From Oscillatoria sp. FACHB-1406 (GTDB lineage Bacteria; Cyanobacteriota; Cyanobacteriia; Cyanobacteriales; Spirulinaceae): DNA of 64,000 nt. The position numbers and the translations under genes were made by a program. The stretch spans positions 1 to 64,000 of the forward strand of contig NZ_JACJSM010000011.1 of assembly GCF_014698145.1 (NCBI RefSeq), written 5' to 3'. The notes under the pieces were generated by a model. It was not told the origin of the DNA and ran no database searches. It saw only the letters and a list, made by a program, of their open reading frames with translations. Every line of letters begins with the position of its first letter. The stretch's first letter is position 1. Below, one piece after another: positions 29,064-32,344 of the stretch.

Positions 29064-30728
29064 GTGCTGGTTTGTAAGGAGCGACAAATTTGGATGAGAG
29101 CGCTAAGGGGCTTGGTGGCGATCGCGCTCGGATGTATCTTGCTAGTGGGATGTAGCGATCGCATCGAAACCGGACTACCTTCCTTTAAACCGGCGGGAAA
29201 CACCAAAATCAAACTCTCGGAAGTTGCGCCCTCCCTCATCCTGCAACAACTGCGGGCAGAACTCGACCGCTACCAACCTCAAGTCGCTATCCTCAGTCCC
29301 AAAGCGGGCGAAGTTCTTAACGACACCACCGCCACGGTCAAACTGCAAGTGCGAGACTTACCCGTCTTTAAAAATGCCGAACTCCAGGCAGGACCTCATC
29401 TCAGTCTCATTCTCGACAACCATCCCAGCCAAGCCCTCTATAACCCAGACGAACCCATTGTCTTTGACGACCTCGAACCGGGAACCCATACCCTGCGCGC
29501 CGTCGCCGTCAGTCCTTGGGACGAAACCTTTAAAAATGAAGGCGCGTTCGCTCAAACCACATTTCATGTTTTAACTGAAACCGGCAGTAACGCCCCCAAC
29601 CCCGCCAAACCCCTAATTACCTACAGCAGTCCTCAAGGGAGTTATGGCGCAGAACCCATCCCCATTGACTTTTATTTAAGCAACGCGCCGCTGCACGTCG
29701 TCGCCGCCGAAAATCCCGACGACGAGATTAAAGACTGGCGCATTCGCGTCACCGTCAACGGTCAAAGCTTCATCGCCGACAGTTGGCAGCCCATTTACCT
29801 CAAAGGCTTCCAACCGGGCAAAAACTGGGTGAAACTCGAACTTCTCGATGAAGAGGGGAACCTTATCGATAATGCCTTTAACAGTACCGTTCGTTCCCTT
29901 GACTATCAACCCAACGGTCAAGATTTATTAGCTCAGTTGACGCGCGGCGACTTGTCGCTGGAAGATACGCTCGGTATTGTCGATCCCAACTATATTAAGC
30001 CAGTCCCGCCGCCGGTGGTAGAGGAACTACCCCCGCCAGTAATCGAAGAAACACCCACAGTTGAGGAAGTCCCGCCGCCGGTTATCGAAGAAACGCCCGC
30101 AGTTGAGGAAGTCCCCGAAACAACTCCGGTAGAACCTGAAATCAAACCTTCGCCTATCGAAACACCAACGGTAGAAATCGTTCCGGTTCCGACTGTTATC
30201 GAACCCAAAGTTGAAGTCGTTCCCGTTCCAGAAATCGAACCTTCCCCAATTGAAACGCCAAAGGTAGAAGTTATTCCGGTTCCTACAGTTATCGAACCTA
30301 AAGTAGAAATCGTTCCGGTTCCGAAAATCGAACCTTCCCCGATTGAAACGCCGACAGTAGAAGTTCCGGTTCCTATCGTCATTGAACCCAAAGTTGAAGT
30401 CGTTCCGGTTCCGGAAGTCGAACCTTCTCCGATTGAAACCCCAACAGTAGAAGTTCCGGTTCCTATCGTTATTGAACCCAAAGTTGAAGTCGTTCCAGTT
30501 CCAGAAGTCGAACCTTCTCCGATTGAAACGCCGACAGTGGAAGTTCCGGTTCCTACCGTTATTGAACCCAAAGTAGAAATCGTTCCAGTTCCAGAAGTCG
30601 AACCTTCTGTGGTAGAAGAAGCGCCGGTTACGGAAGCGCCTGCGAAGTCTAAAACCAATCGATTTCTCGACCAGTTGAAGTCAAGGTTTAATAAATTTCA
30701 GAAATTGGTGAAGGAAGACTCAGAGTAG
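29064..30728 (+). CDS. Lipoprotein with Pro/Glu/Val-rich repeats
   Basis: A 554-residue envelope protein. Residues of about 11-30 (MRALRGLVAIALGCILLVGC) are a lipoprotein signal with lipobox LVGC. Residues 45-300 form Ig-like beta domains with SPKAGEVL and DLEPGTHTLRAV. Residues 310-520 are tandem repeats of about 30 residues (VPVPEVEPSPIETPTVE type), probably an extended wall-spanning linker. The tail is basic (RFLDQLKSRFNKFQKLVK). GTG at 29064 follows GGAGGGG; ATG at 29094 after AAGGAG is an alternative start and gives a more usual signal peptide. Its role is unknown; length and layout suggest a periplasm-spanning anchor. Confidence 0.8.
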   Translation: MLVCKERQIWMRALRGLVAIALGCILLVGCSDRIETGLPSFKPAGNTKIKLSEVAPSLILQQLRAELDRYQPQVAILSPKAGEVLNDTTATVKLQVRDLPVFKNAELQAGPHLSLILDNHPSQALYNPDEPIVFDDLEPGTHTLRAVAVSPWDETFKNEGAFAQTTFHVLTETGSNAPNPAKPLITYSSPQGSYGAEPIPIDFYLSNAPLHVVAAENPDDEIKDWRIRVTVNGQSFIADSWQPIYLKGFQPGKNWVKLELLDEEGNLIDNAFNSTVRSLDYQPNGQDLLAQLTRGDLSLEDTLGIVDPNYIKPVPPPVVEELPPPVIEETPTVEEVPPPVIEETPAVEEVPETTPVEPEIKPSPIETPTVEIVPVPTVIEPKVEVVPVPEIEPSPIETPKVEVIPVPTVIEPKVEIVPVPKIEPSPIETPTVEVPVPIVIEPKVEVVPVPEVEPSPIETPTVEVPVPIVIEPKVEVVPVPEVEPSPIETPTVEVPVPTVIEPKVEIVPVPEVEPSVVEEAPVTEAPAKSKTNRFLDQLKSRFNKFQKLVKEDSE

Positions 30729-31033: not shown

Positions 31034-32344
31034 CTACTCTAATTCTTCTTCGACAGAAGGAGCGTTATTAATTGAGGAAAGTGTTTGTCTTAATTTCTCT
31101 AATTCTTTATCGGCAGAATCCTGGAACTGATGGGAGGAAATCATCCCTTTTAACCTCTCCAATTCTTCTTCGACAGAAAAAGCGCTTTTAGTCGAGTCAA
31201 ACGTTTGTCTTGATTCCTCCAATGCTCCATTGGTCGAAGTTTTGGACTGCTGGGGAGAAATCATTTCTTTTAACTCCTCCAATTCTTCATCTACAGGAGG
31301 CTCGATCTGACCAGAGGAAAGCATTCGTTTCAATTTCTCCAATTCTTCATCCACAGAAGTATTGATGTCCAACTCTATCCTGGTAAATTCGGCATCCCAA
31401 TCGGCTTTAGAAAGTTTATCGAGTCCCTGCGAACGGCTCTCTAGTTGCTTGATTTTTTCTTCCATTCGCTCGAAAGCTTTCATTGCGGCACTACTTTCCT
31501 GGAACGCATTCGGTGATGCTTGACCCAGTTTAAGAGTCGTAATCTTAGCTTTCAGACTCGTTCTCATCGTTTTTGCTTCAACGATTTTATCCTCTAAAAG
31601 TGCAAGCTTTTCTTTAGCACTGTTAACTAAAGCTAATCCTCGATCGCGCGGTTCTTTCAAACTGCTGAGAATTTCAGCGTGCATCTTTTTACGCTTGAGA
31701 GCCTCCCCCGCTAAAAATTTATCTCCTTTTTGGAGAGCCAGTTTCACTCTCCCTTCCCAGCGCGTTACTTCTTCTTCTGCCTGTTCGTAGTGCGGTTTAA
31801 GGTTCTTTTGGCTAACCACCACGTTAGTAATAGCTTGACGAACTTTCCAAGCATCCATTTCCATTTCATCGATCGCGCGCTCCAAAAGATACTCGGGATC
31901 GAGACCTTGCTGAAGCAGACGATTTAAACCGACTAAACCCAATCCTACAACGGCTCCGCCTGCCGCCATTGAAGCCATTCCAACCCCGAAGGCACTCCCG
32001 CCTACCGAGACTCCAACACCGCCAACAACTGCTGAAGTTGCCGCACCGCCTGTTGCCCCGATCGCAGCAGCTTTTGCAGAAGAAGCATCATTCTCAACGA
32101 GCGATCGCAATACTTCAAAAAGGGCAGCACCGCTTAAAGCCCCAACAGCCGCTAGAGGAATTGTACCGAGACTGTAACCCGTACCCCCAGCTAAGATGCC
32201 AATTTTACCAACAGAAGCACCCGATATTACTCCTCCAGCGACTAAGGCTGCCCCTTCACTTGGATAATTGCGATCGCCATACTCACCGTCGGCGTTCAAT
32301 TCCGCTCGAGCTACGCGACTCATGCGATCGAATAATTCTCCCAT
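31034..32344 (-). CDS. PspA/Vipp1 (IM30)-type protein with membrane insertion and C-terminal repeats
   Basis: A 436-residue relative of PspA/IM30, the ESCRT-III-like membrane-remodelling family. Residues 1-17 (MGELFDRMSRVARAELN) match the amphipathic helix alpha0 of PspA. Residues 18-147 are a Gly/Ala-rich glycine-zipper region likely to enter membranes. The PspA coiled coil resumes at about 148 (DPEYLLERAIDEMEMDAWKV) and runs to about 330. Residues 331-436 hold six copies, exactly 20 residues apart, of the VDEELEKLK motif that ends Vipp1/PspA proteins (starts 331, 351, 371, 391, 411, 431). It is alone on its strand, beside lipA. The role is presumably membrane maintenance; this architecture is new to me. 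Confidence 0.75.
   Translation of the reverse strand: MGELFDRMSRVARAELNADGEYGDRNYPSEGAALVAGGVISGASVGKIGILAGGTGYSLGTIPLAAVGALSGAALFEVLRSLVENDASSAKAAAIGATGGAATSAVVGGVGVSVGGSAFGVGMASMAAGGAVVGLGLVGLNRLLQQGLDPEYLLERAIDEMEMDAWKVRQAITNVVVSQKNLKPHYEQAEEEVTRWEGRVKLALQKGDKFLAGEALKRKKMHAEILSSLKEPRDRGLALVNSAKEKLALLEDKIVEAKTMRTSLKAKITTLKLGQASPNAFQESSAAMKAFERMEEKIKQLESRSQGLDKLSKADWDAEFTRIELDINTSVDEELEKLKRMLSSGQIEPPVDEELEELKEMISPQQSKTSTNGALEESRQTFDSTKSAFSVEEELERLKGMISSHQFQDSADKELEKLRQTLSSINNAPSVEEELE

Follow-up and report, generated by a model that had tools for sequence, protein, structure and literature searches.

A glycine-zipper module inserted behind alpha0 in a small cyanobacterial family of PspA/Vipp1 proteins

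Results

The gene described here occupies positions 31034..32344 on the reverse strand of the window, the 64,000-nucleotide stretch of Oscillatoria sp. FACHB-1406 DNA that was analysed. Pfam and PDB matches identify its product, a Vipp1-like protein of 436 amino acids that we call zipper-PspA; both the reading frame and its coordinates had been placed correctly in a first-pass annotation. All features of the gene given below lie on the same strand. Elsewhere in the window, positions 29064-30728 specify a 554-residue protein that starts like a lipoprotein and contains a long proline/valine repeat (EPSPIETPTVEVPVP...), for which no Pfam match was found at E<=0.001. A known anti-phage system was considered and set aside, as PADLOC yields just weak coil matches for the zipper-PspA protein.

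The core of the protein, alpha1-alpha5 (residues 140-330, 31355..31927, delimited by profiles, AF2 and Foldseek), is matched by the Pfam PspA_IM30 model (PF04012) with E=1.7e-28 and 100.2 bits, the curated cut-off being 33.9 bits, over residues 140-340 of the protein and positions 14-216 of the 220 in the model. The best PDB match is Vipp1 (6zvr, E=4.5e-36), other solved Vipp1/PspA chains also match, and NCBIfam PspA/LiaH models are hit with scores below their equivalog cut-offs. AF2 predicts helices at residues 150-205, 209-276 and 284-327, corresponding to the alpha1-alpha5 fold with its long hairpin, at pLDDT values of 80-98 for most of residues 141-270 and 50-75 for alpha5. When this model was used in Foldseek, Vipp1/PspA assemblies came out on top (E down to 4.5e-08). 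The PspA signatures DPEKLL, GDExLAREAL and AFERMEEK are kept across the zipper-PspA family. The 436-residue protein is a true member of the PspA/IM30 (ESCRT-III-like) family. Generic coiled-coil similarity, which by the first-pass annotation's own account would refute its proposal, is ruled out by Pfam, NCBIfam and PDB matches that are specific and cover the whole core, by Vipp1/PspA as the best folds, by the retained signatures and by the clean insertion point described below. The same genome also encodes a canonical Vipp1 of 254 amino acids.

An N-terminal amphipathic alpha0 is common, albeit not universal, in the PspA/IM30 superfamily. In the zipper-PspA protein an alpha0-like helix (residues 1-17, MGELFDRMSRVARAELN, 32294..32344) is present, yet 122 residues lie between it and alpha1, a departure from the usual layout. 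Against a profile that we built from ordinary cyanobacterial Vipp1/PspA, residues 3-17 align to positions 2-16 and residues 140-383 to positions 15-254. Since the flanks match positions 2-16 and from 15 onwards, the alpha0/alpha1 junction has gained about 122 residues by insertion and lost next to nothing. When residues 1-15 were joined in silico to residue 140, the score rose from 152.5 to 174.3 bits, a gain of about 22, in one continuous alignment, while controls with a shuffled alpha0 reached at most 163.9 bits. Two relatives (L056 and L006) show the same clean insertion at profile position 15/16, and alpha0 keeps all seven of its family-invariant columns. The first 17 residues and the C-terminal part are thus PspA-like, as had been annotated, and the Gly/Ala-rich block between them is real, its length revised from 130 to about 122 residues (18-139).

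The inserted Gly/Ala-rich, glycine-zipper module (31928..32293), recognised by composition, AF2 and conservation, is predicted to be a helical hairpin repeated twice. Within 118 residues it contains 27 glycines and 24 alanines and only eight K, R, D or E. Its mean hydropathy over 19 residues peaks at a moderate 1.69, GxxxG spacing is not strongly enriched (343 of 5000 shuffles were as high), and looser glycine patterns showed no enrichment over shuffles. AF2 places helices at residues 28-46, 61-83, 88-106 and 123-145, with low confidence in both models, so that no fold is established. The even number of helices, four, would bring alpha0 and the coil out on the same side. Of the 52 family-invariant columns in the insert 48 are kept, and an alignment of 42 diverse copies of the module displays 10 invariant and about 15 nearly invariant positions, mostly glycine. 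The conserved charges are found mainly around residues 80-86 and at 142, with partial columns at 28, 30, 47, 77 and 145-146, and the remaining turn regions carry almost none. No glycine-zipper model is among the Pfam/NCBIfam matches listed for the zipper-PspA protein, the free module or its fusions. The small cyanobacterial glycine zipper 2TM proteins of the GlzT type (PMC7771541), to which we liken the module by description, are likewise glycine-rich predicted membrane hairpins; they have no PspA part.

These properties bear on whether the insert enters the membrane at all. A soluble Gly/Ala-rich module for oligomerisation or spacing, holding alpha0 further off the polymer, would fit the moderate hydropathy, the weak GxxxG enrichment and the low AF2 confidence. 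However, we consider this unlikely in view of the mostly glycine positions held invariant or nearly so across the 42 copies, and of some 120 nearly chargeless residues whose few charges fall mostly on one side of the predicted hairpins. The insert is probably membrane-embedded. Of the membrane-embedded ESCRT-III-like protein envisaged by the first-pass annotation, the Gly/Ala-rich insert is confirmed, and the membrane location is a reading of composition and topology.

A search of cyanobacterial proteomes for the same layout, as had been suggested earlier, was productive. With a profile comprising the module plus the junction (E <= 1e-58), the alpha0-zipper-PspA layout was detected in 15 members of an even sample of 388 Cyanobacteriia genomes, that of the window included. 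Further loci were recovered (L006, L007, L035, L036, L136 and L137; of the last two only L136 was read at full length), and the complete, mobilizable plasmid pNSMS104 of Nostoc sp. MS1 carries a zipper-PspA gene annotated simply as a PspA/IM30 family protein. Two copies (L007 and L035) are incomplete, the alpha0 stretch being absent from the reading frame. Another copy, in genome G171 (L063 / L122 7994-8563), is 189 residues long, stops early in the coil and is possibly truncated. That many genomes and a complete plasmid share the same junction rules out an artefact of one genome or a misassembled fusion: the layout is that of a conserved small family and not a one-off. In a quick, unrooted tree of the coil part, one branch (SH-aLRT 97) separates all zipper-PspA proteins from ordinary Vipp1/PspA, which is consistent with a single origin, and the group attaches among Vipp1-like sequences, nearer to the Vipp1 than to the PspA branch.

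Comparison of regions of 9-19 kb gave no conserved operon partner for the main zipper-PspA group. FrhB-type neighbours occur at 6 of the 21 loci compared, and in two of these six the locus is a zipper-WD40 gene (see below) beside a shorter PspA-like gene. The FrhB-type gene lies near zipper-PspA or zipper-WD40 genes at L035, L036, L123, L128, L130 and L131, and also at L040; Pfam confirms it as FrhB_FdhB in L128, and it is possibly of the BciB chlorophyll reductase type.

The tail of the zipper-PspA protein consists of five full 20-residue units: unit 1, the equivalent of the Vipp1 motif after alpha5 (residues 331-350, VDEELEKLKRMLSSGQIEPP, 31295..31354); unit 2 (residues 351-370, VDEELEELKEMISPQQSKTS, 31235..31294); the degenerate unit 3 (residues 371-390, TNGALEESRQTFDSTKSAFS; TNGALEESRQTF, 31175..31234); unit 4 (residues 391-410, VEEELERLKGMISSHQFQDS, 31115..31174); and unit 5 (residues 411-430, ADKELEKLRQTLSSINNAPS, 31055..31114). 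A stub, VEEELE (residues 431-436), and the TAG stop follow at 31034..31054, and beyond the stop the frame reads on as LKK. The BLOSUM62 autocorrelation of the tail is 1.34 at lag 20 and 1.68 at lag 40, where shuffles reach at most 0.62; at the DNA level identity is 0.58 at lag 60 and 0.70 at lag 120, and Tandem Repeats Finder reports a period of 120 bp. The tail is a repeat expansion. Between unit 3 and units 1, 4 and 5 dN exceeds dS, and overall the unit-to-unit dN/dS is mixed. The step of 20 residues agrees with the first-pass annotation, whereas its count of six motifs is reached only by including the stub and degenerate unit 3. Nor is the motif single in ordinary proteins, as had been supposed: all five cyanobacterial Vipp1 sequences aligned have it twice, in alpha6 and in the C-terminal helix. 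The C-terminal linker and helix, a Vipp1 trait, are present in most zipper-PspA members and multiplied in the window protein. The aligned relatives possess the usual one or two motifs, never more than two, and none where incomplete, so that the multiplied tail is not part of the family architecture; the expansion was found only in the window protein and, as far as sampled, appears private to it.

Could this be a decaying or recently acquired copy, functionless in the strain, whose repeat tail and TAG within the last motif reflect drift? The degenerate unit and the in-frame LKK after the stop would be in keeping with such a history, as would the branch of the window protein, the longest in the tree (1.06), and the lack of a zipper-PspA gene in all 12 other genomes of the taxonomic family. 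Against this, the frame is open throughout, and 95 of 107 family-invariant positions are kept, a share of 0.89 where the other members span 0.85-0.98. We therefore regard loss of function as highly improbable.

The module is not confined to zipper-PspA. It occurs in free proteins of about 130-180 residues, several of which adjoin an HNH-nuclease-like gene; this arrangement of a free double glycine-zipper protein was noted at L035 6183-6961, L036 8032-8810, L046, L047 and L049, the HNH assignment being Pfam-confirmed in L036 only. The window genome encodes it in addition in a 220-residue protein (L041). A phage origin was rejected: the free module is unmatched in phages and PHROGs hits are weak. 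As a separate observation, a PspA-like coil stands behind an unrelated N-terminal domain in the window genome (L004 1120-1809) and in a relative (L053 1415-2176); by eye this domain looks LRAT/NlpC-like, which may be compared with the fusions of PspA and NlpC/P60 reported by Ravi et al.

The module also stands N-terminally in WD40-repeat proteins about 530-640 residues long. Zipper-WD40(-DnaJ) loci include L038 2109-3860, L039, L040, L042-L045, L072, L073, L078, L080 and L082; a DnaJ domain is listed by Pfam in L038, and in the other sequences inspected it was recognised by eye at the C-terminus. Between the module and the WD40 repeats, the zipper-WD40-DnaJ proteins have a segment homologous to PspA alpha5-alpha6, which scores up to 43.9 bits against the Vipp1 profile and is recovered by hhalign with a probability of 98.4% (E=7.6e-15). 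Genes with one or two PspA-like hairpin segments lie near or directly before zipper-WD40 genes (L073 248-748, L082 693-1499, L036 6916-7902), and at L074 1174-1977 (G414) a gene for alpha0, the zipper and a shortened PspA hairpin directly precedes one. Counted by eye, zipper-PspA and zipper-WD40-J proteins co-occur in three genomes of the class sample, against about 0.9 expected, and in the sample of relatives both genomes with zipper-PspA also have zipper-WD40-J; these are too few to support a claim.

These fusions raise the possibility that zipper-PspA is an anchor or adaptor that does not polymerise any more: the module and alpha0 would present Vipp1-like helices and recruit ordinary Vipp1/PspA to a site on the membrane, in the manner of VIA1. 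The pairing of the same module with PspA alpha5-alpha6 alone in the WD40-DnaJ proteins is in line with this idea, and so is the L074 protein. As the family retains a complete alpha1-alpha5 core with conserved sequences, we hold a pure adaptor to be conceivable, though rather improbable.

Discussion

On the basis of these comparisons, we propose that zipper-PspA is a paralogue of the membrane-shaping protein Vipp1, the bacterial ESCRT-III, that has become anchored in the membrane and acts together with Vipp1/PspA polymers, a model that we judge somewhat more probable than its negation. With Vipp1/IM30 of cyanobacteria and chloroplasts it shares the PspA_IM30 core alpha1-alpha5, alpha0, an alpha6-type motif and the C-terminal helix, and it differs by the 122-residue glycine-zipper insert after alpha0 and by the multiplied tail motif; in bacterial PspA, which shares superfamily and core, both the insert and the extended C-terminal helix are missing. 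The same organisms are already known to have membrane-integral proteins that include ESCRT-like parts. Among the Vipp1 partners reported, VIA1 (Slr1603) combines winged-helix domains with three TM helices, and a PPR-family protein combines only the alpha1/2 hairpin with TM helices (PMC13051332); a full PspA core carrying an insertion behind alpha0 has been described for neither. According to Ravi et al. 2024, more than 98% of PspA homologues vary little, most being a PspA_IM30 domain alone, and the remainder are tandem copies or fusions with NlpC/P60, PspAA and other domains (PMC11237479). Although these fusions are likewise rare multidomain PspA homologues, some of them cyanobacterial, the main text describes no glycine-zipper insertion and the word glycine is absent from it. 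In a literature search that left out most subscription journals we found no published description of the alpha0-zipper-PspA architecture and no match for Vipp1 together with a glycine zipper; the family is apparently undescribed.

What would a membrane module accomplish at this point of a Vipp1-like protein? In SynPspA rods it is alpha0 that faces the membrane, keeping the rod at a distance of about 35 A (PMC13051332). In zipper-PspA the double glycine-zipper hairpin module is placed between the amphipathic alpha0 and the hairpin of alpha1 and alpha2, at the membrane-facing point of the polymer, and it may anchor one stretch of the polymer. The four Gly/Ala-rich helices, with widely conserved charges at one end of the hairpins only, would bring both alpha0 and the coil to the same side. 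Subunits of Vipp1 rings swap their alpha5 onto the tip of a neighbour's hairpin (PMC8281802), and through this alpha5-to-hairpin contact the PspA core could polymerise, either by itself or together with the genome's ordinary Vipp1. The anchored stretch would stay fixed to the membrane, possibly that of the thylakoid, and would not alternate between a soluble ring and a membrane-bound state. The tail helices may act as regulator and docking sites, regulatory or for Hsp70; in the window protein a two-motif tail has grown to five by duplications of 60 and 120 bp, and its valency would rise. We count against this anchored-Vipp1 model the features of the insert already weighed (moderate hydropathy, weak GxxxG, low AF2 confidence), as well as the longest branch and, for most members, the absence of a conserved operon.

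In chloroplasts, Hsp70 and CDJ2 have been reported to act on VIPP1 (PMC13051332). By parallel, the domain order of the zipper-WD40-J proteins suggests that they are candidate membrane-bound J-proteins docking on PspA/Vipp1 polymers. That a membrane-resident ESCRT-III branch and a zipper-J-protein bringing Hsp70 to disassemble its polymers should form a bacterial counterpart, assembled from other parts, of ESCRT-III/Vps4 is a doubtful extension that we put forward as speculation.

The known form of bacterial ESCRT-III-like polymers is a soluble ring with peripheral attachment to membranes. If our model is true, the conserved family with its membrane module incorporated where the polymer faces the membrane would represent a fixed-site branch of this superfamily, and such a version would help to ask how Vipp1 polymers select and hold membrane. 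The WD40-DnaJ proteins, which combine the module with the polymer-contacting alpha5, offer a concrete candidate for the J-protein that brings Hsp70 to cyanobacterial Vipp1/PspA.
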